DNA of 64,000 nucleotides from Stenotrophomonas sp. 704A1 (GTDB taxonomy: Bacteria; Pseudomonadota; Gammaproteobacteria; Xanthomonadales; Xanthomonadaceae). The notes below the pieces were generated by a model. It saw nothing but the letters and a program-made list of their open reading frames with translations. It was not told the DNA's origin and searched no databases. The stretch spans positions 1,203,501 through 1,267,500 of the forward strand of contig NZ_CP130831.1 of the NCBI RefSeq assembly GCF_030549525.1, given 5' to 3'. Below, piece after piece: positions 5,978 through 34,531 of the stretch. The translations under genes and the position numbers were made by a program. The first letter of the stretch is position 1. Each line of letters starts with the position of its first letter.

Positions 5978-7663
5978 ATGGCAGATAATCACTACGACGC
6001 CATTGTTGTTGGCTCGGGAATCAGTGGCGGTTGGGCGGCAAAGGAGCTGACCGAAAAGGGTCTGAAGGTGCTGATGCTGGAACGCGGACGCAACATCGAG
6101 CACGTCAAGGACTACGTCAACGCGATGAAGGAGCCGTGGGACTTCCCCCACCGCAACCGACCGACGCAGGCGATGAAGGCCGAATTCCCCGTGCTGATGC
6201 GCGATTATGGCCTGGCCGAGAACCTGCAGGGGATGTGGGCCAACGAGCAGGAATCACCCTACATCGAGACCAAGCGCTTCGACTGGTTCCGCGGCTACCA
6301 CGTAGGAGGCCGCTCGCTGATGTGGGGCCGGCAGAGCTATCGCTTCTCCGACCTGGATTTCGAAGCGAACCGCAAGGATGGCATCGCCACCGACTGGCCG
6401 ATCCGCTACGCCGACATCGCGCCGTGGTACGACCACGTGGAGACGTTCGCCGGCATCGCCGGCACGCGCGAGGGGCTGGACGTGCTGCCGGATGGCCAGT
6501 TCCTGCCGCCGGTGCCATTGAACATCGTCGAGAAGGATGTGGCGGCGAGGATAAAGAAGGCCTTCGGCGGCACCCGCCACATGATCCACTCGCGCACCGC
6601 CAACATCACCCAGCCGATGCCCGAGCAGGGGCGGGTCAACTGCCAGTACCGCAACAAGTGCATCCTGGGCTGTCCCTTCGGTGCCTATTTCTCGACCCAG
6701 GCGGCGACGCTGCCTGCGGCGATGAAGACCGGCAACCTGACCCTGCGGCCATTCTCGATCGTCAAGGAAGTGCTGTACGACAAGGACCGCAGGCGTGCGC
6801 GCGGCGTGGAGGTCATCGACGCCGAGACCGGGCAGACCTACCAGTACACCGCCAAGGTGATCTTCCTCAACGCGTCGTCGTTCAACTCGACGTGGTTGCT
6901 GATGAACTCGGCCACCGATGTGTGGGAGGGCGGGCTGGGCTCATCGTCGGGCGAGCTTGGCCACAACGTGATGGACCACCATTTCGGCGCGGGCGCTTCC
7001 GGCCGGGTCGAAGGCTACGACGACAAGTACTACTTCGGACGGCGCCCCTGCGGCTTCTACATTCCGCGGTTCCGCAACGTTGCTGCCGACAAGCGCGGCT
7101 ACCTGCGCGGGTTCGGTTACCAGGGCGGTGCCAGCCGCACCGGCTGGTCGCGCGAGATCGCCGAGCTGAACATCGGTGCCGACCTGAAGGACGCGCTGAC
7201 CGTGCCGGGCGACTGGCGCATCGGCATGACCGGGTTCGGCGAGATGCTGCCGCACCACGACAATACGATCCGGCTGGACCGCGAGCGCAAGGACAAGTGG
7301 GGGCTGCCGGTGCTGGCGATGGATGTGTCCATGCGCGCCAACGAACTGGCGATGCGCAAGGACATGGCCGCCGATGCTGCCGAGATGCTGGAGGCGGCCG
7401 GCGTCAAGGACGTGAAGATGCACGACAACGACTATGCCCCGGGCAAGGGCATCCATGAGATGGGGACGGCGCGCATGGGACGCGATCGCAGAAGCTCGGT
7501 ATTGAACGCGCACAACCAGGTCTGGGATGCGCCCAATGTCTATGTGACCGACGGTGCCTGCATGACCTCCAGCGCCTGCGTGAATCCATCGCTGACCTAC
7601 ATGGCGCTGACCGCGCGCGCCGCCGACCATGCCGTACGCGAACTGAAGGCGGGGAATCTCTGA
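5978..7663 (+). CDS. GMC oxidoreductase, probable glycoside 3-dehydrogenase large subunit
   Basis: The protein has 561 residues. The FAD dinucleotide motif VVGSGISGG lies at residues 11-18. The C-terminal GMC signature HEMGTARMG, then ACVNPSLTYMALTARA, carries the expected catalytic His/Asn pair. Cys222-X5-Cys228-X3-Cys232 (CQYRNKCILGC) resembles the Cys loop that holds an Fe-S cluster in FAD-dependent sugar dehydrogenases. It has no signal of its own; the small subunit encoded next has a Tat-like signal and probably carries it across the membrane. With a cytochrome c in the facing operon it resembles the three-part lactose/glucoside 3-dehydrogenases, which oxidise the C3 hydroxyl of glycosides. 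The stop overlaps the next start by one base. Confidence 0.88.
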   Translation: MADNHYDAIVVGSGISGGWAAKELTEKGLKVLMLERGRNIEHVKDYVNAMKEPWDFPHRNRPTQAMKAEFPVLMRDYGLAENLQGMWANEQESPYIETKRFDWFRGYHVGGRSLMWGRQSYRFSDLDFEANRKDGIATDWPIRYADIAPWYDHVETFAGIAGTREGLDVLPDGQFLPPVPLNIVEKDVAARIKKAFGGTRHMIHSRTANITQPMPEQGRVNCQYRNKCILGCPFGAYFSTQAATLPAAMKTGNLTLRPFSIVKEVLYDKDRRRARGVEVIDAETGQTYQYTAKVIFLNASSFNSTWLLMNSATDVWEGGLGSSSGELGHNVMDHHFGAGASGRVEGYDDKYYFGRRPCGFYIPRFRNVAADKRGYLRGFGYQGGASRTGWSREIAELNIGADLKDALTVPGDWRIGMTGFGEMLPHHDNTIRLDRERKDKWGLPVLAMDVSMRANELAMRKDMAADAAEMLEAAGVKDVKMHDNDYAPGKGIHEMGTARMGRDRRSSVLNAHNQVWDAPNVYVTDGACMTSSACVNPSLTYMALTARAADHAVRELKAGNL

Positions 7664-23889: not shown

Positions 23890-25023
23890 GTGGTTGTGCT
23901 GAGTACGATGGGGTTGTTGATGGGCCTGTATGTGGCCTGGCGCCTGTTCTGGCCGCTGCGGCTGCCGCTCTGGGCCAAGGCGCTGCTGTCACTGCTGCTG
24001 GTGGCGCTGGCGGTGCAGCTGCGCATCGTCGCTACGTTCTGGGGCACGATGGCGTCGCCGGAGATCCCACGAATGGCCATCGCCACCCTCGCCACCGGTT
24101 CCACCGCGGTGCTGCTGTTGGCACTGGGGCTGCTGGTGCTGGATGCGGGCCTGCTGCTGTCGCGTGCGCTGCGCTGGCCGCGTGCGGTGGCGGCGCTGCG
24201 CACGCGCATGCTGCGGCCGCTGGCGGCCGGGTTGGCCCTGCTGCTCAGCGCTTACGGTGTCAGCCAGGGCATGGCGGTACCGACGGTGCGGCAGATCGAC
24301 GTGCGCATCGCCGGGCTGCCGGCCGCCTTCGACGGCTACCGTGTGCTGCAGCTCACCGACATCCACGCCAGCCGCCTGCTGACCGGCGACTGGGTGCGTC
24401 GGGTCGTGGCAGAGAGCAATTCGCTGGAGCCGGATCTGATCGTGATCACCGGCGACCTGATCGATGGCACGGTGGCGGCGCGCCGCAACGATTTCCAGCC
24501 GCTGGGTGACCTCCAGGCGCCGGACGGGGTGATCGCCATCACCGGCAACCACGAGTACTACGCCCAGTACCGCGAATGGATGCAGGCCTTCCGCGCGCTG
24601 CACATGCAGGTGCTGGAAAACAGCCATACCCAGGTGCGTCGCGGCAGTGCCGCGCTCACCATCGCCGGTGTCACCGATCCCGTTGCGGCGCGCTATGGCC
24701 TGCCGCTTCCCGATCTGGACGCCGCGCTGGCCGGTGCCGCGCCGGCCGCGCCGGTGATCCTGCTGGACCACCGTCCGCGCAACGCGCGCGAAGCGGCCGA
24801 GCGCGGCGTGAAGCTGCAGTTGTCCGGGCATACCCATGGTGGCCAGATCATCGGCATGGACCAGCTGGTGAAGCGGGCCAACGGCGGCTACGTATCCGGC
24901 CGTTACGCGGTGGACGACATGACCCTGTACGTCAGCAACGGCGCCGGCCTGTGGGCAGGCTTCCCGGCACGCATCGGCGTGCCTTCGGAAATCACCCTGA
25001 TCACCCTGCGCCGCGCACCGTGA
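23890..25023 (+). CDS. Membrane-anchored metallophosphoesterase
   Basis: The protein has 377 residues if the GTG at 23890 is used; an ATG at 23908 is an alternative. Four N-terminal helices (about 1-120) are followed by a calcineurin-like phosphoesterase domain with all metal motifs: LQLTDIHAS, VITGDLIDG, TGNHEYY, and LSGHTHGGQ near the end. It resembles YkuE/YaeI enzymes, which hydrolyse phosphoesters such as UDP-sugar lipids in the cell envelope. Substrate is not known. Confidence 0.88.
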   Translation: MVVLSTMGLLMGLYVAWRLFWPLRLPLWAKALLSLLLVALAVQLRIVATFWGTMASPEIPRMAIATLATGSTAVLLLALGLLVLDAGLLLSRALRWPRAVAALRTRMLRPLAAGLALLLSAYGVSQGMAVPTVRQIDVRIAGLPAAFDGYRVLQLTDIHASRLLTGDWVRRVVAESNSLEPDLIVITGDLIDGTVAARRNDFQPLGDLQAPDGVIAITGNHEYYAQYREWMQAFRALHMQVLENSHTQVRRGSAALTIAGVTDPVAARYGLPLPDLDAALAGAAPAAPVILLDHRPRNAREAAERGVKLQLSGHTHGGQIIGMDQLVKRANGGYVSGRYAVDDMTLYVSNGAGLWAGFPARIGVPSEITLITLRRAP

Positions 25024-25057
25024 CCGGGTGCGGCGCGCGGCATGACCGGTCCACGGC

Positions 25058-25792
25058 TCAGAGGATGAAGCCGCCATCGATGGTCAGGCTGCTGCCGGTC
25101 ATGTAGCCGGCCTCCGGGCCGGCCACCCAGCTGGCCAGTGACGCGATCTCGGCAGGCTGGGCGATGCGGCCCAGCGGCACCCGCGCAGCCAGCATTGCAT
25201 CCCATCCGGCGGTGATGTCGGTTGCGGTCGGCCCGGGTTGCAGGTTGTTGATGGTGATGCCGCGGGGGGCCAGCTCCAGCGCCAGCTCGCGCACCAGCGC
25301 GGCCACCGCCGCCTTGCTCATCGCGTACAGGCTGCTGCCCGGTGAGCCGCTGCGAACGGCGGTGTTGCTGCCGATGGTGATGATGCGGCCGCCCGCCGAC
25401 AGCTGCGGGAGCGCCGCCTGGATGGCCAGCACCACGCCGCGGATGTTCACCGCCAGCAGCTGGTCCAGCGTGGCCAGGTCCACGCTGTCGATAGGCGTAT
25501 GCCGGTAGAGGCCGGCGTTGACCACCAGCACATCCAGCCCGCCGAAGGCCTGCGTGGTGGCGGCCACGGCCTGGCGCAGTGCATCGGCATCGCTGCTGTC
25601 GGCGTGGACGGCGATGGCACGGCCAGCGTGCATGCGGATGGCCTCAAGCGATGCCTGCGCCGCTTCGGGGCGCGAGACGTAGGTGATGGCCACCTCATGG
25701 CCGTCGGCAGCCAGGCGCTGCGCGATCGCCGCGCCGATGCCGCGTGAGCCGCCGATGACCAGTGCACGGCGGCGGGAAGAAGTCGATGTCAT
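25058..25792 (-). CDS. Short-chain dehydrogenase/reductase
   Basis: The protein has 244 residues. The NAD(P) motif GGSRGIGAA is near the N-terminus, NAG in the middle, catalytic Ser in ITIGSNTA and YxxxK in SLYAMSKAA, and a typical C-terminus YMTGSSLTIDGGF. It is the last gene in the minus-strand run that includes the bufferin-like genes, 31 bases after the membrane protein. Whether it takes part in the peptide pathway or only shares the transcript is unclear. Confidence 0.88.
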   Translation of the reverse strand: MTSTSSRRRALVIGGSRGIGAAIAQRLAADGHEVAITYVSRPEAAQASLEAIRMHAGRAIAVHADSSDADALRQAVAATTQAFGGLDVLVVNAGLYRHTPIDSVDLATLDQLLAVNIRGVVLAIQAALPQLSAGGRIITIGSNTAVRSGSPGSSLYAMSKAAVAALVRELALELAPRGITINNLQPGPTATDITAGWDAMLAARVPLGRIAQPAEIASLASWVAGPEAGYMTGSSLTIDGGFIL

Positions 25793-25823
25793 GTTGAAAC
25801 TCCAGTGGGGGTGGGAAAGGCGC

Positions 25824-26462
25824 TCAGGACGCCGGTTGCGAAGCATGCGAACGCGCACCGCGCCGCAGCGTCTGTGCCCGCTTGGCGATCCAGCGCACCA
25901 CGAAGGCGGTGAACAGCAGCGCCGAGGGCACCGCGTACCAGAAGTTGGCGGGCACGCGCTTGAAGTACGAATAGGTGAACACCGCGGCGATGATCCACAT
26001 GCCGGTCACGTGCAGGCGCCTCCATGCGGTAGGTCCCATGCGCCGGGCGATGCCGCGGTGCGAGGTGATCGCCAGCGCGAGGATGGCCACGTAGCCCACG
26101 GTGCCCGGCAGGTTGGCCAGGGCCGAGCGCGCCGGCCAGAACGCGGGGTTGAGGATGCCGAAGGCGGTGATCGCCACTGCATGCAGCAGGTGCGAGAACG
26201 CGAACGACAGGCCGACGATGCGGCGCTCGCGCAACAGGAACCGGGTGAACGCGCCGGGCAGCAGGCTGGCGAACGAAGACGCAGTGAACGCGGCCAGGAA
26301 CAGCAGGAACGACGTGCGCGCGGTCACCCGGATGGCCGCACGGCTGCCTTCCACCACATCAGGTTGCAGGGCGAACGCGGCCATCGCGAAGGCGATCAGC
26401 ACGACGGCGATGGCCACGAACAGGCGCCAGCCGTGCAGGAAGGAGGGGGTTGCAGCAGCCAT
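25824..26462 (-). CDS. Ferric-reductase-like transmembrane protein
   Basis: The protein has 212 residues with about six membrane helices. His residues in SFAFSHLLHAVAI and in RRLHVTGMWI lie on separate helices and suit a haem-b four-helix core, as in MsrQ and other ferric-reductase-like domain proteins. No flavin domain is present, so any electrons must come from a partner. It follows the bufC-like gene by 51 bases, suggesting redox work on metals linked to the bufferin pathway (inference). Confidence 0.75.
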   Translation of the reverse strand: MAAATPSFLHGWRLFVAIAVVLIAFAMAAFALQPDVVEGSRAAIRVTARTSFLLFLAAFTASSFASLLPGAFTRFLLRERRIVGLSFAFSHLLHAVAITAFGILNPAFWPARSALANLPGTVGYVAILALAITSHRGIARRMGPTAWRRLHVTGMWIIAAVFTYSYFKRVPANFWYAVPSALLFTAFVVRWIAKRAQTLRRGARSHASQPAS

Positions 26463-26513
26463 GGTCAGACCTCGATGAAGGAAAAAGGGAGGAGCGGCGC
26501 GTGGCCGCAGGGT

Positions 26514-27248
26514 TCAGCAGGGGTGCGCCGCGACCAGCACGCCGGCGGCGCAGAGGTCGGCCAGCAACGGTGCGCTGGACGCCTGCAGATCAGCGCGCTC
26601 CACGCCGTGGTTCGCTGCCAGCGTCCCTAGTGCGTCGTCGACGCGGGCGCCGTTGTTGCCCAGCGCCGTCAGCAGGGCATAGGCCAGCGGTGCCAGCATC
26701 TGCGTGTGCACGCTGAAATCGGCGTGGCGTTGCAGCAGCAGCAAGGTTGGCGTCGCATCTGACGGTGCCGCCAGCGCGTCGTCCCGGTGCACCGGCCACT
26801 GGTAGCCCAGCACCCGGACATGCGTCGACAGCGCAAGCACGTCCGTGCCCACCGCGGCACGCGGCAACGGCTGTCCGGCCTCGCGCGCTTCAATGTGCAG
26901 CGCTTGCTGCGTGCTTTCGTAGTGCGCCAGTTCCGCGGCCCAGCCCGGCAACCCGAGCGTGTCCTGTGCCGCCAGCCAATGCGCGAACTCGGCGGCGATC
27001 TGCGGGAACAACGGGGTGTGGCAGGCATGGCGGGCGTAGTAGTCCTCGACGGTGGCGCGCCAGCGCTGCGTGCCCAACCGGTGCTGCAGGCGCGGCAGGC
27101 TGCCGGCCAGCAGGGAGTCCAGGCTGTCGATGCACAGGCGGCGGTACACCGCCAGCCGACGCGCCTCGACACCCTCGGGTGCGGTCATGGAAGGGTCGCG
27201 CACATGGTCGGCCCAACGTCGTTGGAGGGTTGCCAGCGACTCAGCCAT
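26514..27248 (-). CDS. bufC: BufC/HvfC-like peptide-modification partner (DUF2063 N-terminal domain)
   Basis: The protein has 244 residues. The N-terminal part [16 protein letters not shown]...[29 protein letters not shown]...[23 protein letters not shown] is the DUF2063/HvfC domain that presents the precursor peptide to the MNIO enzyme. The second half is a winged-helix-like region that is less conserved. The gene overlaps the bufB stop by 8 bases, indicating coupled translation and a stable complex, as known for this family. Confidence 0.88.
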
Positions 27249-28086
27249 GGGCCACCTCCGGCATCAGCGCGTCGGCCTGGGCCTGGCGGATCTGCGCGAC
27301 TTCGTCCAGCAGCTCGGCCAGTGGCGGGAAGTTGAAGTCGCGTTCGAGCAGGGTGGGGTGCACGCCGACGCGGGCATAGGCCTCGCGCAGCAGGGCCCAG
27401 ACCACGCCCTTCACCGGCGCGCCATGGGTGTCGATCTTGAAGCCGTCGTCCTCGTCGAAGTGGCCGGCCACATGCAGCGAGGCCACCCGATGGGCAGGTA
27501 CGCGGGCCAGGAAATCGAAGGCGTTGTAGCCGTTGTTGCAGGCGTTGACGAAGACGTTGTTGACGTCCAGCAGCAGATCGCAGTCGGCCTCGTCGAGCAC
27601 GGCGTTGATGAAGTCGATCTCGCTCATGTCGGCACCGGGCACCGCGTAGTAGGAAATGTTCTCCACTGCGATGCGGCGGCCCAGGCTGTCCTGCACCTGG
27701 CGGATGCGGCCGGCGACGTGGCGCACGGCTTCGGCGGTGAACGGCAGCGGCAGCAGGTCATAGACGTGTCCGCCGGCGGCGCAGTAGCTCAGGTGTTCGC
27801 TGTACAGGTGCACCTGATGCAGGTCCAGGAAGGCACGGGTCTGCGCCAGCAGCGTGCGGTCCAGTGGGTCCGGGCCACCCAGCGACAGCGACAGGCCATG
27901 GCAGGTGAGGCGGTGGCGCTCGCTCAGCTGGCGCAGGGCGGCGCCGTGCGCGCCGCCGACGCCGATCCAGTTGTCCGGCGACACTTCGAGGAAGTCGAGG
28001 GCATCGGCCGGCATCGCCAGCAGGTCGTCGATCAGGCCACGGCGCAGGCCAAGACCGGCGCTGGCGGAAGGCAGCAGCAGGGACAT
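27241..28086 (-). CDS. bufB: MNIO family (DUF692) bufferin maturase, BufB/HvfB-like
   Basis: The protein has 281 residues, a TIM barrel with the multinuclear-iron ligands of DUF692: [79 protein letters not shown] and a final ERDFNFP. Enzymes of this family use mixed-valent iron and O2 to convert Cys residues of a precursor peptide into oxazolone/thioamide or thiooxazole groups. Location directly after a Cys-motif precursor and overlapping bufC supports that role. Acts in the cytoplasm before export of the peptide. Confidence 0.93.
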
Positions 28087-28101
28087 ACGCGGTACTCCGG
28101 G

Positions 28102-28129
28102 GTAGTGGCGCCGCCGTGCTGGCGGCGCC
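28102..28129 (+). repeat. GTAG-led hairpin between bufA and bufB (SMAG-like)
   Basis: GTAG at 28102-28105 is followed by a perfect GGCGCCGCC/GGCGGCGCC stem (28107-28115, 28121-28129) with a 5-base loop. It fills the 56-base gap between the precursor and maturase genes and would form in the minus-strand transcript. The GTAG start and hairpin form match SMAG-type repeats, although the stem sequence is a different subtype. Confidence 0.6.
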
Positions 28130-28142
28130 GGGTGGCAGGCAA

Positions 28143-28619
28143 TCAGTCGGCAACGCGTGAGAACAGGCCCTTCGGCATCGGCTTGCCGTTGGCGGTGTAG
28201 ACCCTGCGCAGGTAGTCGTGCGCTTCCTGTTCGCTGATGTAGCCGTCGTGGTCGGTATCGATGCGGTCGAATTCGGCGGCACGCGTGGCGGCCACGGCGT
28301 TGAACTCGGCGCGCGACACCCTGCCGTCGTGGTCACGGTCGGTGCGGGCGAACGAGGCGTCGCCGCACTTGCCTTCGCCGCATTGGCCCTCGGCCACCTT
28401 GGCCTTGCCGGCCGGCTTGGAGGTGGCGGCCTTGTTGGCGCCGCACTTGCCTTCACCGCACTTGCCTTCGGCAGCGGCGCTCATGGCCACGGCACTGAGT
28501 GCCAGCGGCTGGACGGCCGCGGCCTGGCCGGCCAGCAGCAGGCCCCCGGCGAGGGCGATGCCGATGGCGCCGATGCGCGGCAGACGGGAAGCGGTGGTGT
28601 TCTGGGTCGGGACGGACAT
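28143..28619 (-). CDS. bufA: Bufferin/HvfA-like RiPP precursor with two EF-hands
   Basis: The protein has 158 residues from the ATG at 28619 (AAGGAG 7 bases upstream). Residues about 13-35 form a Sec signal ([20 protein letters not shown]), so the product is periplasmic. Four Cys lie in EGKCG-type motifs: Cys54, Cys59, Cys80 (EGQCG) and Cys85, in two pairs separated by a Lys/Ala linker. Two full EF-hand loops follow at 94-105 ([12 protein letters not shown]) and 121-132 ([12 protein letters not shown]). EGKCG Cys are the modification sites in HvfA-type metallophores. The EF-hands should bind Ca2+, so the mature peptide may bind two kinds of metal. Confidence 0.9.
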
Positions 28620-28716
28620 GGTGATGACTCCTTGAATGGCACGCCGGGCGTGCGGGATGGACGCCGCCCGGAGGCGACGGAAACGAACGGAAGGTGCGTG
28701 GGAGGGGCGAAGCGGT

Positions 28717-29361
28717 TCAGGCGCTGCGGCGACGGCGCAGCGCGTGGCCCAGCAACAGCGCAGCGCCGAGCAGGGCGCCACCGAAGCCGATGCCGGGCAG
28801 CAGCGCGGCGACCGGCAGCAGCAGGGCGATCAGGCTCACGCCCCAGCCGAGGCCGTCATTGCCGACCGTGGCGCGCTGCGGGCCGGCCAGCAGGCGATCC
28901 AGGCTGAGCGCACCGCCGCCGTTGAGGATCAGCGGCAGCAGCATGGCCAGGAACAGCAGCGGCAGCTTGAAGTTGCCGTAGCCCTGGTCGGTGATCGCAT
29001 AGCCCTGCCAGAGTTCGCCCAGGCCGTTCCACTGGTCGGGCCAGTGCACGGCGGCGATGGCGACGATGGTGAGCACCCAGAAGATGTAGGCCACCGAGCG
29101 CGTGGCCAGGCCCAGCAGCAGCATCACTGCGCCAACCAGTTCCAGCCAGGTGGCCAGCTGCCAGTTGAGCGATGCCGGCAGGGTGGAGAAGGGGAACGGG
29201 AAGCGGCCGTCCAGGTCGGCGAACCAGTTCTGGCCGCCCAGCTTCTCGCGGCCGGATTCGAAGAACTCCCAGGCCAGCAGGGCGCGCAGGGCCAGCGGCG
29301 AGAGCCAGCGGCCGACCGCATCCAGGCGAGGGGTGTACAGCGAAGCGGTGGTGCTGGTCAT
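28717..29361 (-). CDS. DoxX-family membrane protein of the bufferin operon
   Basis: The protein has 214 residues, first gene of the operon. It has about five hydrophobic segments; the DoxX core is visible in [58 protein letters not shown] and [25 protein letters not shown]. DoxX proteins are a regular companion of HvfA/BufA-type gene sets and are thought to help in the membrane steps, but their biochemical job is not settled. The gap to the precursor gene is 97 bases. Confidence 0.85.
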
Positions 29362-29704
29362 GTCGGTGTCCTGCGGGCCAGTGGTCGATGGAGGCCATTT
29401 CAGGACGTGCAGGTATCGGCAACGTGTGCCGTTGCCCGGGGTTTTGTCAGCCACTGTGGCCGTGGCAGGGGTTTCGTACAGTCAGATACAAAGACGCCGC
29501 ATCGGGGGCGCATCGGCGCGTTGCGCGCCCGCGTGCGGGGAACGATATCCCCCCGGTAGCGCCGGGCCATGCCCGGCGGCCGAATGTATCCCACTGTAGG
29601 AACCCGCCGCCGCCCTACAGTCCGGTACAACTCGGCCCGGCAGCGAAACAGCACCGATACACCGTCAGGTGGAAATGGCCACTCCCAACCCTGGAGTGCC
29701 ACCC
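29362..29704. promoter_or_regulatory. Divergent promoter region with three copies of a TACAGT...TACA motif
   Basis: This 343-base gap has no gene. It contains TACAGTCAGATACAA (29477-29491, plus), TACAGTGGGATACA (29585-29598, minus) and TACAGTCCGGTACAA (29616-29630, plus), a shared pattern TACAGTNNGRTACA. It also holds a SMAG hairpin at 29556-29578. The copies are about 116 bases upstream of the DoxX start and 75 bases upstream of the hydrolase start, so one regulator could control both directions. The regulator is unidentified. Confidence 0.55.
29556..29578 (+). repeat. SMAG repeat
   Basis: GTAG followed by a CGCCGGGC/GCCCGGCG hairpin around a CAT core. Same form as the copies at 44975, 49417 and 58328. 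Confidence 0.85.
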
Positions 29705-30499
29705 ATGATCCGCACCACCCTGCTTGCCGCCGCCCTGGCCCTGGCCGGCGCCGCCACCCCCGCCTTCGCCGCGCAGGCCGATGCCGGCGCAGCGCCCACG
29801 GTCATCCTGGTCCACGGCGCCTTCGCCGACGGCTCCAGCTGGAACAAGGTCATCGCGACGCTGCATGACTGGAAGCTGCCGGCGGTGGCCGTGCAGAACC
29901 CGCTCAGTTCGCTGGCCGATGATGTGGCCGCCACCCGCCGTGCGATTGCCGCGGCGCCGGGCAAGGTGGTGCTGGTCGGGCACAGCTGGGGCGGCACGGT
30001 GATCACCGAAGCCGGCAACGACCCGAAGGTGCAGGCGCTGGTCTACGTGGCGGCGTTCGCGCCCGATGCCGGCCAGTCGTCGGCGCAGCAGGGCGAGGGC
30101 TTTCCGGTCGGCCCGGGGCTGGCCCGGCTGCAGGAACGCAACGGCTACCTGACCCTGCCGGCCGACGCCATCGCGCAGGACTTCGCGCCGGACGTGATGA
30201 AGAAGACCGCCGCCCTGCTGTACAGCACCCAGGTACCCCTGAAGGCCAGCGCACTGGGCGAAGCGGTGACGACCGCAGCCTGGCGCAGCAAGCCCAGCTG
30301 GTACGTGATCAGCCGCGATGACCGCATGCTGTCGCCACAGCTGCAGGCGGCCACCGCGCGCCGCATCGGGGCGCAGGTGCAGTCGATTGGCAGCAGCCAC
30401 GTTTCGTTGCTCTCGCACCCGGCACAGGTGGCCGACAGCATCCTCGAAGCGGCCGGGGTGAAGCCGGCCGAGCTGCCGCTGGCCGAGCAGGGCGGCTGA
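29705..30499 (+). CDS. Secreted alpha/beta hydrolase
   Basis: The protein has 264 residues with a Sec signal (LLAAALALAGAATPAFAAQA). The hydrolase fold shows the oxyanion-loop motif VILVHGAFADGSSW, the nucleophile elbow GHSWGG and a C-terminal SSHVSLLSHP that supplies the His. It resembles the EstC/salicylate-esterase-like hydrolases. Substrate is unknown. The following thioredoxin-like gene begins one base after the stop. Confidence 0.88.
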   Translation: MIRTTLLAAALALAGAATPAFAAQADAGAAPTVILVHGAFADGSSWNKVIATLHDWKLPAVAVQNPLSSLADDVAATRRAIAAAPGKVVLVGHSWGGTVITEAGNDPKVQALVYVAAFAPDAGQSSAQQGEGFPVGPGLARLQERNGYLTLPADAIAQDFAPDVMKKTAALLYSTQVPLKASALGEAVTTAAWRSKPSWYVISRDDRMLSPQLQAATARRIGAQVQSIGSSHVSLLSHPAQVADSILEAAGVKPAELPLAEQGG

Positions 30500-30500
30500 G

Positions 30501-31046
30501 ATGGCCCGCCTTCGCAGCTACACGCTGCCGTTGCTGCTGGCCCTGTGCGGCGGCGCGGCCCTGCTGCTGGCATGGCCAAGCCCCGACGCCGGCGCGCAGC
30601 CGGCGGCGGGGCCGCCGCCGGCCGGGTTCCAGGGCGGTGGCCCCTGGCACAACAGCCCGCCCCTCACCCTCCAGCAGCTGCGCGGGCAGGTGGTGCTGGT
30701 CGAGTTCTGGACCTACACCTGCCGCAACTGCCTCAACGTCGCGCCGTACGTCCACCAGTGGCACCGCCGCTACGCGGCGCAGGGCCTGCAGGTGATCGGC
30801 GTGCATACCCCGGAGTTCGCCGATGAAGGACGGCCGGGCAACGTGCGCCATGCCCTCCAGCGGCTGGACATCCGCTGGCCGGTGGTGCAGGACAACCAGT
30901 ACCGGATCTGGAACGCCTGGGGCAACCGCTTCTGGCCTGCGCTGTACCTGATCGACCGCCAGGGGCGGGTGGTCTACCGCCACTACGGCGAAGGAGATTA
31001 CGCACGCACCGAAAGCGAGATCCAGCGCCTGCTGGCCAGCCCCTGA
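30501..31046 (+). CDS. Exported thioredoxin-like (TlpA/redoxin) protein
   Basis: The protein has 181 residues with an N-terminal signal or anchor (LPLLLALCGGAALLLAWP). The thioredoxin fold has the active site FWTYTCRNCLN (Cys-Arg-Asn-Cys) and the cis-Pro region RFWPALYLIDRQGRVVYRHYGEGDY. The C-R-N-C form matches the redoxin group related to DipZ/TlpA, which handles disulfides in the periplasm. Translation is probably coupled to the hydrolase gene. Confidence 0.88.
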   Translation: MARLRSYTLPLLLALCGGAALLLAWPSPDAGAQPAAGPPPAGFQGGGPWHNSPPLTLQQLRGQVVLVEFWTYTCRNCLNVAPYVHQWHRRYAAQGLQVIGVHTPEFADEGRPGNVRHALQRLDIRWPVVQDNQYRIWNAWGNRFWPALYLIDRQGRVVYRHYGEGDYARTESEIQRLLASP

Positions 31047-31102
31047 GCCGCGCTACCATGGCCGCGCCGTGCGGCCTTGCCCCTGCCTCCACCGAGAACG
31101 CG

Positions 31103-31843
31103 ATGAACCACGTACCGCACATCCTTGTCGTCGACGATGACAGCGAAATCCGCCAGATGCTGGCCGACTACCTGCAGCGCAATGGACTGCGTGTCAGCCA
31201 GGCCGATGGCGGTCGCGCCATGCGCGCGCTGATGGATACCCATGCCGTGGACCTGGTGGTGCTGGACGTGATGATGCCCGGCGAGGACGGCCTGAGCCTG
31301 TGCCGCAACCTGCGTGCCGGCAAGCACCGCGCGGTGCCGGTGGTGCTGCTGACCGCACGCGATGACGAGACCGACCGCATCATCGGGCTGGAGATGGGCG
31401 CCGACGACTATGTGACCAAGCCGTTCTCCTCGCGCGAACTGCTGGCCCGCATCAACGCGGTGATCCGCCGCACGCAGATGCTGCCGCCGAACCTGCAGGT
31501 GACCGAGGCGGGCCGCCAGCTGGCGTTCGGTGAGTGGCGGCTGGACACCACCGCGCGCCACCTGCTGGATGCGCAGGACACCGCCTATCCGCTCAGTGGC
31601 GCCGAGTTCCGCCTGCTGCGCGTGTTCCTCGACCATGCCAACCGCGTGCTCAGCCGCGATCAGCTGCTGAGCCTGACCCAGGGCCGTGACGCTGAACTGT
31701 TCGATCGTTCCATCGATCTGCTGGTCAGCCGTGTACGCCAGCGCCTGGGCGACGACGCACGCGAGCCCACCTACATCAAGACCGTGCGCAGCGAAGGGTA
31801 TGTGTTCAGCATGCCGGTGCAGATGCTGGGGCCGGAGGAATGA
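31103..31843 (+). CDS. OmpR-family response regulator
   Basis: The protein has 246 residues from the ATG at 31103. The receiver domain has the acidic pair in VVDDDSE, phosphorylation site Asp55 in LVVLDVMMPG and Lys in TKPFSSRELLAR. The winged-helix DNA-binding domain (about 140-240) ends with LLVSRVRQRLGDDAREPTYIKTVRSEGYVF. The stop overlaps the sensor kinase start by 4 bases. It lies 56 bases after the thioredoxin gene and may control this neighbourhood. Confidence 0.95.
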   Translation: MNHVPHILVVDDDSEIRQMLADYLQRNGLRVSQADGGRAMRALMDTHAVDLVVLDVMMPGEDGLSLCRNLRAGKHRAVPVVLLTARDDETDRIIGLEMGADDYVTKPFSSRELLARINAVIRRTQMLPPNLQVTEAGRQLAFGEWRLDTTARHLLDAQDTAYPLSGAEFRLLRVFLDHANRVLSRDQLLSLTQGRDAELFDRSIDLLVSRVRQRLGDDAREPTYIKTVRSEGYVFSMPVQMLGPEE

Positions 31844-33156
31844 GCGCCGCCGTGCGTCGCCTGCCGTGGCCGCGCACGCTGTCGGCACGGCTGCTGCTGT
31901 TGCTGCTGGGCGGCTTGAGCGTAGCCCATGCGCTTTCGTTCGGGCTGCTGTTCTTCGAGCGTTACCAGGCCACGCGGAGCATGATGCTGCGCAACCTGGA
32001 CGAGGATGTGGCGGTGAGCGTGGCGTTGCTGGAGCACCTTCCCGCCAGCGAACGCGACGCCTGGGTGCCGCGCCTGGAGCGGCGCACCTACCGCTATCTG
32101 CTGCGCCCGGCGGCGCCCGGTCCGGCCGTGCTGACCGATCGCGCCCGGCAGGTGACCGGCATCATCGATGACAGCCTGCAGCACCGTTATCCCCTGCAGG
32201 TGCGCCAGGTCGCGCGCATGCCCGAGCGTTTCGAAGTGGAACTGCGGCTGCGCGACGGCACGCCGCTGACCATCGAAGTCACGCCGTCTGGCCTGCCGCT
32301 GGCGCGCTGGCTGCCCGCCGTGCTGCTGTTGCAGCTGGCGCTGCTGCTGCTGTGCGCATGGTGGGCGGTGCGGCTGGCGATGCGCCCGCTGGCGCAGCTG
32401 TCGCACGCGGTCGAACATCTGCAGCCCGGCAAGGAGGGGCCGGCGCTGCCCGAAGCGGGGCCAGCGGAGGTCGGAGCCGCTGCCGCGGCGCTGAACGCAC
32501 TGCAGGCGCGCATCCGGGGCCATGTCAGCGAGCGCCTGCAGATCCTGGCGGCCATCTCGCATGATCTGCAGACGCCGATCACGCGGATGAAGCTGCGGGT
32601 GGAGACGCTGCCCGAAGACGCCACCCAGCAGCGCCTGCTGGCCGACCTGGACCATCTGGGCCAGCTGGTGCGCGAGGGCGTGGCCTACGCGCGCAGCAGC
32701 CATGTGGCCAGTGGTGCGCCGGTAGCGATGGACCTGGGCGCGTTCCTGGCCAGTGTGGTCGGTGACTACAAAGACATGGGCAGGCCGGTCACCGGCGGCG
32801 CGCCACCTGGCCTGATCGTGCAGACCTGGCCGCAGCCGCTGCGGCGCGTGGTCGGCAATCTGGTCGACAACGCGCTGCGCTATGCCGGCAGTGCGGACAT
32901 CGAGGCCGGCCGTGATCCAGCGGGCAGGGTGTGGATCCAGGTTTCCGATCGCGGCCCCGGCATTCCCGAGGACCAGCTGCAGGCAGTGCTGGCGCCCTTC
33001 CATCGGCTGGAAAGCTCGCGCAACCGCGATACCGGCGGCACCGGCCTGGGCCTGGCGATTGCCCTGCAGCTGGCGCAATCGCTGGGTGGTTCGCTGCAGC
33101 TGCACAACCGCGAAGGCGGTGGGCTGCAGGCGGTGCTGCAGCTGCCGGGGTCGTAG
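31840..33156 (+). CDS. Sensor histidine kinase partner
   Basis: The protein has 438 residues. Two membrane helices (about 15-35 and 155-180) enclose a periplasmic sensor of about 120 residues. A HAMP domain follows (MRPLAQLSHAVEHLQPG), then the dimerisation helix with His241 in AAISHDLQTPITRMKLRVE, and a HATPase domain (VVGNLVDNALRYAG, VSDRGPGIPEDQL, GTGLGLAIALQLAQ). The layout matches EnvZ-type kinases. The signal is unknown. Confidence 0.94.
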   Translation: MSAAVRRLPWPRTLSARLLLLLLGGLSVAHALSFGLLFFERYQATRSMMLRNLDEDVAVSVALLEHLPASERDAWVPRLERRTYRYLLRPAAPGPAVLTDRARQVTGIIDDSLQHRYPLQVRQVARMPERFEVELRLRDGTPLTIEVTPSGLPLARWLPAVLLLQLALLLLCAWWAVRLAMRPLAQLSHAVEHLQPGKEGPALPEAGPAEVGAAAAALNALQARIRGHVSERLQILAAISHDLQTPITRMKLRVETLPEDATQQRLLADLDHLGQLVREGVAYARSSHVASGAPVAMDLGAFLASVVGDYKDMGRPVTGGAPPGLIVQTWPQPLRRVVGNLVDNALRYAGSADIEAGRDPAGRVWIQVSDRGPGIPEDQLQAVLAPFHRLESSRNRDTGGTGLGLAIALQLAQSLGGSLQLHNREGGGLQAVLQLPGS

Positions 33157-33159
33157 GTG

Positions 33160-33199
33160 GGGGCAGAGCCCGTTGCCACCGGCAAAGTGATCTGGCCCC
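33160..33199. repeat. Imperfect GGGGC...GGCCCC hairpin repeat
   Basis: GGGGCAGAGC...GTTGCC pairs imperfectly with GGCAAA...TCTGGCCCC around ACC. The pattern is like the longer hairpin at 45036-45074, so both may belong to one dispersed repeat family. It fills the gap between the kinase and MFS genes and could also terminate transcription. Confidence 0.5.
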
Positions 33200-33247
33200 G
33201 CTTGCAGGTGCACCGCGCCGTCACCCCGCGCGTGACACCCTCCGGCC

Positions 33248-34531
33248 ATGACTGAAATGACGGCGGCGCGGCAGCGCTCGATGTGGGTAGCGGGCCTGTC
33301 CACCGTGGTGGAGTGGTACGACTTCACCCTGTACCTGTACTTCGCCACCGTGTTGTCGCGGGTGTTCTTCGGTGGCGGCGAGCAAGCGATGCTGGTCACG
33401 CTCGCGGGCTTCGCGGTGTCCTATCTGATGCGCCCGCTCGGCGCGCTGTGCTTCGGCCACCTCGGTGATCGCCTCGGCCGGCGCTGGATGCTGCTGGCCT
33501 CGATGGCGCTGATGGCGGCGGCGATGCTGGCCACCGCGCTGCTGCCGACCGCGGCGACGGCGGGCACCACGGCCGGCGTGCTGCTGCTGGTGCTGCGCTG
33601 CGTGATGGCGTTCTCGGTGGGCGGCGAATACACCGGCGTGGTCGCCTACCTGCTGGAAAGCGCGCCGGCCCGGCGGCGCGGCCTGGTGACCTCGCTGGCC
33701 TCGGCGGCCAGTGAAGTGGGCGCGCTGCTGGCGGTGGCGATTTCTGCAGTGACGGTTGCGATGCTGACGCCCGCGCAGCTCGATGGCTGGGGCTGGCGCA
33801 TTCCGTTCTTCGTCGGCGCCGCGCTGGCGCTGGTGATTCTCATCGCGCGCTCAGGCATGCACGAATCGCCCGAGTTCGAGCGTCAGCGTCGCGAGGGCAG
33901 CATTCCGGCGACGCCGCTGCGCCACGTGCTGCGCAATCATCCTGGCGCCGTGGCGCGCACCTTTGCGATCTCGGCGCTCGGCTCGATCACCTACTACGTG
34001 GGCATCACCTATGTGCCGGCGTTCCTGCATGCGCAGGGGCATGACGAGGGCGATGCGCTGTGGCTGTCGACGCTGGCCGCGGTGGCGGTGATCGTGATCA
34101 CGCCGCTGTGCGGTGCGTTGTCCGACCGTTTCGGGCGGCGGCCCCTGTTGCTGTGGCTCACCGCATTGGCGGCGCTGCTGCCATTGTCGATGTTCGCCTG
34201 GATGGCCGATGCCGCGCCGCTGGGTATCGCGCTGGCGGCGGTGGTGCTGGCCTGCGTGGCCGGTGGCATCAGCGCGGTGGCGGCCCCGGCCACGGCAGAG
34301 CAGTTCCCGGGCGAAGGCCGGGTCAGTGGGCTGGCCCTGGGGGTCACGATGGCCACCGCGTTGTTCGGCGGGGCCACGCCCTGGCTGGCGCAATGGTGGG
34401 TGCAGCGCAGCGGCTGGGCAGCGGCGCCGGGCGCGATGATCGCGCTGGTGGCGGTACTGGTGCTGCCGGTGCTGTGGACACTGCCGGAAACCGTACTGCG
34501 TACCCGCCCCGGTGACCGGGGCGGGCGCTGA
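33248..34531 (+). CDS. MFS transporter of the metabolite:H+ symporter (MHS) family
   Basis: The protein has 427 residues and about 12 helices. VVEWYDFTLYLYFATVL in helix 1, MRPLGALCFGHLGDRLGRRWML in the 2-3 loop and GEYTGVVAYLLESAPARRRGLVTS in helix 5 are typical of MHS proteins such as ProP, KgtP and CitA. The substrate may be an organic acid or osmolyte. It stops 4 bases before the convergent nucleoside hydrolase gene. Confidence 0.9.
   Translation: MTEMTAARQRSMWVAGLSTVVEWYDFTLYLYFATVLSRVFFGGGEQAMLVTLAGFAVSYLMRPLGALCFGHLGDRLGRRWMLLASMALMAAAMLATALLPTAATAGTTAGVLLLVLRCVMAFSVGGEYTGVVAYLLESAPARRRGLVTSLASAASEVGALLAVAISAVTVAMLTPAQLDGWGWRIPFFVGAALALVILIARSGMHESPEFERQRREGSIPATPLRHVLRNHPGAVARTFAISALGSITYYVGITYVPAFLHAQGHDEGDALWLSTLAAVAVIVITPLCGALSDRFGRRPLLLWLTALAALLPLSMFAWMADAAPLGIALAAVVLACVAGGISAVAAPATAEQFPGEGRVSGLALGVTMATALFGGATPWLAQWWVQRSGWAAAPGAMIALVAVLVLPVLWTLPETVLRTRPGDRGGR

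Follow-up and report, generated by a model that had tools for sequence, protein, structure and literature searches.

A probable EfhP-type captophorin cluster beside a BfmRS-like two-component system in Stenotrophomonas sp. 704A1

The DNA studied is a 64,000-nt window from the genome of Stenotrophomonas sp. 704A1 (G000; 4.69 Mb, one contig), and all coordinates are window positions. Its minus strand carries a gene cluster for a ribosomally synthesised and post-translationally modified peptide (RiPP), in which a precursor with EGxCG cysteine motifs and two EF-hands lies beside an MNIO maturase. We consider this locus likely to be the Stenotrophomonas version of the EfhP captophorin system, under BfmRS-type regulation and with a cysteine-modified, two-metal product. 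Judged from sequence, the probable product is a periplasmic protein whose modified cysteines bind copper and whose two loops bind calcium, and a two-metal protein is the best reading of the precursor. Gene content, family membership, the specificity residues of the MNIO, co-occurrence of the genes and conservation of the boxes are established here. Neither the fusion of cysteine motifs to EF-hands nor the two-metal idea is new, both having been published in 2024–2025. What is added is the regulation, i.e. a promoter shared with a two-component regulator and boxes resembling those of BfmR. Papers are cited by PMC number; statements credited to PMC4053335, PMC9132961, PMC11559002, PMC12668002, PMC13419390 and PMC12452194 refer to excerpts of these papers.

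Our scheme for the cysteine chemistry, for the binding of metals and regulator and for what DoxX and the reductase do is inferred. In it, a BfmRS-type system (31058–33156) is predicted to bind three boxes in the shared promoter (29477–29629). The bound regulator would turn on its own transcript and the divergent one, which runs from DoxX through the precursor, MNIO and HvfC to the ferric-reductase-like gene. HvfB and HvfC would turn the four EGxCG cysteines (two tandem pairs) into 5-thiooxazoles in the cytoplasm, after which the modified precursor would leave by Sec export. Once in the periplasm, it would bind two metals with separate segments, Cu(I) (or another soft metal) with its disordered N-terminal part and Ca2+ with the folded EF-hand pair at the C-terminus. 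DoxX and the ferric-reductase-like membrane protein would most likely hold metal or thiol groups in the correct redox state.

The cluster and its precursor

As the earlier note had claimed, the open reading frames follow each other in the order DoxX, precursor, MNIO, HvfC, ferric-reductase-like protein and short-chain dehydrogenase/reductase (SDR), all on the minus strand (25058–29361):

28717–29361, minus strand: DoxX/HvfX-family membrane protein, first gene of the operon (NCBIfam, Pfam)
28143–28619, minus strand: EfhP/HvfA-type RiPP precursor, 158 aa (NF050137 and four EF-hand Pfam models over cut-off)
27241–28086, minus strand: HvfB-type MNIO maturase (NCBIfam, Pfam)
26514–27248, minus strand: HvfC-type partner, DUF2063 plus NGO1945_C (NCBIfam, Pfam)
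25824–26462, minus strand: ferric-reductase-like membrane protein (Ferric_reduct, Pfam, over cut-off)
25058–25792, minus strand: SDR oxidoreductase, 31 bases downstream of the ferric-reductase-like gene (NCBIfam, Pfam)

The cysteine motifs and EF-hand loops of the precursor that the same note had given were found exactly. EGKCG occupies residues 51–55, 56–60 and 82–86, and EGQCG residues 77–81; Cys85 is 9 residues ahead of the first Ca2+ ligand of loop 1.

28440–28469, minus strand: first tandem EGxCG pair, residues 51–60, Cys54 and Cys59 (motif reading)
28362–28391, minus strand: second tandem EGxCG pair, residues 77–86, Cys80 and Cys85 (motif reading)
28305–28340, minus strand: EF-hand loop 1, residues 94–105 (Pfam, motif reading, structure model)
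28224–28259, minus strand: EF-hand loop 2, residues 121–132 (Pfam, motif reading, structure model)

The N-terminus, judged by eye, resembles a signal peptide. EF-hand_5, EF-hand_6, EF-hand_1 and EF-hand_7 all exceed their Pfam cut-offs, and the NCBIfam domain model for the HvfA-family EGKCG region (NF050137) is matched with a score of 36.2 (cut-off 19.5). Two other identities were rejected: lanmodulin (LanM equivalog, 20.4; cut-off 135) and the effector XopAW (NCBIfam subfamily, 31.9; cut-off 120). The structure model has a mean predicted local distance difference test (pLDDT) score of 58.7. Its EF pair is confidently modelled from residue 87 on, with block means of 80–90 for residues 91–150, and residues 9–86 stay under 50. 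A fold search with this model returned EF-hand folds, none at E<=0.001, and a sequence search against solved structures gave two weak matches, an EF-hand protein and lanmodulin.

A protein search with the precursor covered 1987 candidates, of which 1136 were relatives at E<=0.001 (120 listed). The closest named ones, among the best 80 of at least 266 relatives (the source of the named loci below), come from S. maltophilia EA1 (91% identity) and S. tumulicola (74%). A cysteine motif and then EF loops can be read in 78 precursors, the window's included. With so many relatives, and this layout in 78 precursors, the combination is more than chance. The cysteines lie solely before the EF pair in 57 of the 78 and on both sides of it in 21. 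In 56 of the 57, the last cysteine again stands 9 residues from the first Ca2+ ligand. The 57 precursors counted as EfhP-type all have at least one tandem EGxCGEGxCG pair, and together they hold 228 EGxCG-type motifs and 229 cysteines beyond residue 30; locus L098, the same stretch as L004, is in both the named and the fetched sets and so is counted twice among them.

The excerpt of Antoine 2025 speaks only of C-terminal EF-hands (PMC12452194). A 'sandwich' layout, in which EGxCG motifs flank the EF pair on both sides, was seen for example in L048, L050, L051, L053, L054, L057, L059, L062–L064, L066 and L067, with the precursor near position 6001 of the stretch, mostly in Luteimonas, Pseudoxanthomonas and Lysobacter-type records. 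An EGKCG-type precursor of a Bacteroidales bin (L082) apparently has four EF loops, by eye. Two records may be mislabelled or contaminated: Pantoea sp. Cy-639 (L006), whose cluster looks Pseudomonas-type, and Bacillus subtilis SK7B5 (L071), whose cluster looks Xanthomonad-type.

The earlier note had called the cluster a bufferin-type operon with a maturase and a BufC/HvfC partner. An MNIO RiPP operon with a cysteine-motif/EF-hand precursor and an HvfC partner it is, but by NCBIfam it belongs to the HvfABC/oxazolin (captophorin) type, of which the HvfB and HvfC partners are both present. The MNIO scores 407.7 with the HvfB model NF003818 (cut-off 360), HvfC 202.7 with NF050145 (cut-off 142) and DoxX 132.9 with the HvfX model NF050144 (cut-off 80). 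A BufB-type MNIO was rejected (266.6; cut-off 310) and so was a bufferin proper, given this score and the lack of DUF2282 among the precursor's Pfam matches. The ferric-reductase-like protein scores 33.7 with the MsrQ model, far under its cut-off of 130; its Pfam family is that of the PA4103 domain (PMC4148453).

Residues R15, R16, D250 and F251 of the MNIO match Arg15, Arg16, Asp249 and Phe250 of FonB by number and motif, unaligned, and are present in 58 of the 58 MNIOs compared (those scoring above 150 bits), including the genome's own paralogue. The solved structure closest to the MNIO by sequence is 3bww. Arg15, Arg16 and Phe250 of FonB are tied to substrate selectivity, the matching Arg and Phe residues are conserved in EGKCG-type MNIOs and less conserved or changed in other groups, and the D249A variant gave no modified product (PMC12668002). 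The same work describes 5-thiooxazoles on EGKCG cysteines, copper binding, modification on only the two-repeat one of two shortened FonA peptides, and a mass loss of 8 Da for a two-repeat substrate. For oxazolin, a 2026 preprint states six copper-binding 5-thiooxazoles (PMC13419390).

The gaps between the genes, from DoxX through to the SDR, are 97, 56, -8, 51 and 31 bases, and a single transcript is plausible on this spacing. In a pattern scan of 24900–33300, no sigma-70 promoter was listed, nor any minus-strand terminator inside the six genes; terminator-like matches numbered 5 against 2.5 expected.

The shared promoter and its boxes

Upstream of DoxX a second set of genes diverges, ending in a two-component system, and the gap between the two sets holds three BfmR-type boxes. 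The earlier account of the locus mentioned neither; to us they are the most informative addition.

29477–29490, plus strand: BfmR-type box 1, TACAGTCAGATACA (pattern match)
29585–29598, minus strand: BfmR-type box 2, TACAGTGGGATACA (pattern match)
29616–29629, plus strand: BfmR-type box 3, TACAGTCCGGTACA, one mismatch in GATACA (pattern match)
29705–30499, plus strand: alpha/beta hydrolase, head of the divergent set, opposite DoxX (all models under cut-off; ATG start picked by eye)
30501–31046, plus strand: ResA/DsbE-like thiol-disulfide protein (all models under cut-off)
31058–31843, plus strand: OmpR-family response regulator, BfmR-like (profile models, homologue comparison)
31840–33156, plus strand: sensor histidine kinase, BfmS-like (profile models, homologue comparison)

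The BfmR consensus has been published as GATACAnnGC (PMC4148453) and alternatively as TACAA-N3-GATACA, and promoter binding and activation by BfmR have been reported in P. aeruginosa (PMC4148453, PMC8025907). GATACA occurs 4 times in the window (6.77 expected), 3 of them in the DoxX–hydrolase intergenic region. With up to one mismatch, TACA-N4-GATACA has 3 occurrences in these 343 intergenic bases and one elsewhere in the window, and none of 20,000 simulated regions held three boxes. It is the clustering and not the total that is unusual: of the window's four matches to a longer pattern with two mismatches allowed, three fall in one gap. Exact matches number three genome-wide, two of them in the shared promoter, against one for the reversed control pattern; the third (G000:C1:3564630) has no clear target among the surrounding open reading frames.

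The boxes recur in other genomes. They are present in the stretches fetched from Stenotrophomonas (7/7) and Pseudomonas (4/4), and all seven Stenotrophomonas stretches have three. The start-to-start spacing of boxes 2 and 3 is 31 bases in the window and in all 7 of these loci, with box 1 at a varying distance. A box is found no more than 450 bases upstream in 43 of 46 EfhP-type loci and 4 of 33 others (34 less L069, which has no upstream sequence), and box density is 2.37 per kb upstream of EfhP-type genes against 0.043 in the remainder of those loci (22 boxes over 510,937 bases). The EfhP-type class (L003–L047 plus L060) was bounded by search rank and architecture after the box positions were known, and includes genes whose EF loops fail the pattern (L021, L040, L046, L060); L060, apparently frame-shifted inside, was also added at that point, and without it the count is 42/45. 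The loci missing a box are L003, L021 and L029. L003 has three boxes 40–178 bases upstream of its divergent hydrolase, and was scored as a miss because only DoxX residues 112–176 matched there. The other four loci with a box (L049, L052, L055, L056) are from Pseudomonas, with cysteines on both sides of the EF pair and, in three, the regulator nearby. In the P. aeruginosa-like positive control L089, boxes precede efhP, the ferric-reductase gene (FerR) and the response regulator gene (RR), whose promoters are the reported top three in BfmR enrichment. The L089 regulator, standing in for BfmR, has the window regulator as its best match in the window genome (72%; next 55%; one-way search). ResA/DsbE-like genes also adjoin the regulator in L003, L004 and L043, and lie elsewhere within the L015 and L092 stretches.

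A possible, less probable alternative to the two-metal protein is an HvfA-type copper sponge for copper buffering only, in which the EF pair, stabilised by Ca2+, would serve folding or anchoring and sense nothing. It shares its chemistry with the preferred reading and differs on the role of the EF-hands, and the confidence placed in the two overlaps. Captophorins bind copper, and the work on them leaves their physiological role open (PMC12668002). The confident model of the EF pair beside a poorly modelled cysteine segment, and the 21 of 78 precursors with cysteines on both sides, would also fit a copper sponge. Moreover, EF-hands exist without BfmR-type regulation, because a box is present in only 4 of the 22 loci that carry EF-hands but fall outside the EfhP-type set. 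However, EfhP mutants lose Ca2+-regulated traits (PMC4053335, PMC9132961, PMC11559002), and EfhP, which binds Ca2+, becomes more hydrophobic in a Ca2+-dependent manner (PMC9132961). The nearly constant 9-residue distance between the last cysteine and loop 1 also speaks against the sponge, though the precursors are related by descent.

Conservation of the unit across genomes

The preferred reading is further supported by co-occurrence. Of 91 genus genomes, one and the same set of 27 holds a full-length precursor (E<=1e-70), a response regulator of at least 87% identity and a match to the ferric-reductase-like gene (E<=0.001); the other 64 have no match to that last gene at its threshold. Up to 29 candidates per genome were scored for the regulator and up to 30 for the SDR.

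The earlier note had suggested that the extra redox genes extend the pathway. The reductase does belong to the unit, but the SDR adjoins the cluster only in G000, G044 and G063, i.e. 3 of the 27 genomes (E<=1e-60), and was rejected as a pathway enzyme on this count; it is probably an accessory neighbour and not core. It is very improbable that all six genes form one extended RiPP pathway with the reductase-like protein and the SDR adding modifications. The short gaps favour this idea, as do SDR relatives of 61–62% identity that adjoin a related regulator in five further genomes, but no SDR match lies beside the clusters of L003, L004, L089–L092, L099 or L101–L103. Two of the five genomes with such SDR relatives (L096, L097) have a BfmR-like regulator and kinase, a divergent SDR and a thioredoxin-like gene, and nothing in their stretches matches the MNIO, precursor or reductase of the window.

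In L089, L090 and L092, an efhP–MNIO–HvfC run lies opposite DoxX–FerR and the histidine kinase and response regulator pair (HK–RR). Fetched stretches cover up to 6 kb per side, some being ended by contig ends. Of the 27 loci with the MNIO outside the stretch, 20 were searched genome-wide: 19 hold a BfmR-like regulator (83–91%) and 19 a same-group MNIO, which lies within 10 kb of the regulator in 17 of 19 (coordinates read by eye). The genome lacking both, L041, is a metagenome assembly.

These counts bear on the proposal, made for EfhP (PMC11559002), of a Ca2+ (and iron) sensor with unmodified cysteines. Here, the EGxCG thiols would hold iron or a cluster and the MNIO would have another substrate, which we regard as improbable. 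EfhP made in E. coli, presumably without the maturase, bound Ca2+ (PMC9132961), and for 27 of the 45 EfhP-type precursors the fetched stretch lacks an MNIO. Yet MNIO and HvfC adjoin the precursor in the window and in 18 of 45 EfhP-type loci, the searched genomes with a distant MNIO still hold one of the same group (19/20), and motifs and cysteines are nearly equal in number in the 57 precursors.

Several observations weigh against a modified, BfmRS-regulated two-metal system. The precursor is not HvfA proper, as the equivalog NF050188 gives 29.9 (cut-off 95). FonB alanine variants at Arg15, Arg16 and Phe250 still gave modified product (PMC12668002), so the matching residues tune selectivity and are no proof of reaction. 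A longer box pattern with two mismatches occurs 4 times in the window, a number reached by 8 of 100 shuffles, and 38 of the 46 EfhP-type loci are labelled Pseudomonas. In the fetched stretches of the 45 EfhP-type loci, the regulator is found in 9, the reductase in 6 and the MNIO in 18. The 27 genomes may be one clade, so that their co-occurrence does not amount to 27 independent events. Six genus genomes have a 77–81% regulator and neither the reductase nor a full-length precursor, five of them with the 61–62% SDR nearby, so the regulator is not tied to an EfhP-type peptide alone. Finally, P. aeruginosa efhP is also under CarSR control (PMC4053335, PMC9132961, PMC11559002).

A further, rather unlikely idea is that the EfhP-type peptide, carrying Cu on the thiooxazoles or Ca2+ on the EF-hands, is the periplasmic ligand of its own BfmS-like kinase, docks on its sensor domain and closes a feedback loop, the cluster being the ancestral job of BfmRS and its wider role in P. 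aeruginosa a later one. It is suggested by the near-exclusive box placement (two of the genome's three exact boxes here), by the 27/27 co-occurrence and by the EfhP partners being yet to be identified (PMC4053335, PMC9132961, PMC11559002). The presumed periplasmic part of the kinase has no Cys or His conserved at 90% (26 kinases compared by eye, three from loci without the cluster), which also speaks for the idea. The six genomes that keep a 77–81% regulator without a full-length precursor argue against it.

Comparison with known systems

The same kind of protein appears in two literatures, one on RiPP chemistry (EGKCG, MNIO, copper) and one on calcium and virulence in P. aeruginosa (EfhP, BfmRS). 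Among the matches listed, EfhP and MNIO stand together in one paper (PMC12452194). In the mainly open-access literature covered, no paper was found that joins BfmRS to MNIO chemistry or describes an EfhP-type cluster in Stenotrophomonas. If EfhP-type proteins are thiooxazole-modified, studies on maturase-free protein saw only part of the picture.

Bufferins Buf1 and Buf2 are Sec-exported, MNIO-modified, copper-binding peptides with DUF2063 partners (PMC12452194), features also predicted for the window; in contrast, the window precursor has no DUF2282 match and its MNIO lies under the BufB cut-off. With HvfABCX oxazolin, fontiphorin and gonophorin the cluster shares EGKCG repeats, HvfB/HvfC-type enzymes and an HvfX-family DoxX (NCBIfam name), whereas the term EF-hand is absent from PMC12668002 and, among the matches listed, from PMC13419390. 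The second MNIO cluster of the same genome (G000:C1 ~1503700–1506300, near 1505030; L093 5716–8240), flanked by phoU-like and pst-like genes by eye, likewise has DoxX, HvfC, an MNIO (64% identity) and an EGKCG precursor. This precursor, however, is 125 aa long with no EF loop seen, and the 15-kb stretch has no box.

Antoine 2025 described EGKCG precursors with two C-terminal EF-hand_5 domains beside MNIO genes, suggested possible Ca2+ roles for these chimaeras with EfhP as an example, and found ferric-reductase genes in small numbers of clusters. As in the window, the chimaeras have a short EGKCG segment, with MNIO, DUF2063 and DoxX genes (PMC12452194). Sigma factors are named there for Buf1 clusters; for the EF-hand chimaeras the excerpt mentions neither a regulator nor a binding site.

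The closest counterpart is EfhP (PA4107) with PA4106–PA4105 and BfmRS. EfhP is a Ca2+ sensor that binds Ca2+ at 13.7 uM (PMC9132961), has four EGKCG repeats and was given a dual Ca/Fe-sensing hypothesis for these and its EF-hands in 2024 (PMC11559002). Its EF loops are printed as 88–99 and 115–126, efhP is predicted to be operonic with DUF692 and DUF2063 genes, and homologs with up to 58% identity are reported in Stenotrophomonas (PMC4053335, PMC9132961, PMC11559002). The P. aeruginosa precursor P0034, 61% identical to the window's, has EF loops that begin at residues 88 and 115, with cysteines at 51, 56, 74 and 79; it was taken as EfhP because these loop starts and the four cysteines at EGKCG spacing fit the printed features. 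The EfhP link rests on these numbers and on the gene order in the P. aeruginosa-like genome G012 (96% to P0034). The window gene likewise has two EF loops, repeated EGxCG motifs (four) before them and DUF692 (MNIO) and DUF2063 neighbours, with a ferric-reductase-like gene, a two-component system and BfmR-type boxes nearby. It differs from EfhP in having EGQCG in place of one EGKCG. In the window, DoxX and the reductase also lie on either side of the precursor within a single run, and the divergent set joins the regulator to a hydrolase and a thioredoxin-like gene; in the P. aeruginosa-like L089, DoxX–FerR and HK–RR face the efhP run. The boxes and the neighbouring kinase make the BfmS signal and the interaction partner of EfhP testable, in what appears to be a compact, dedicated version of the system.

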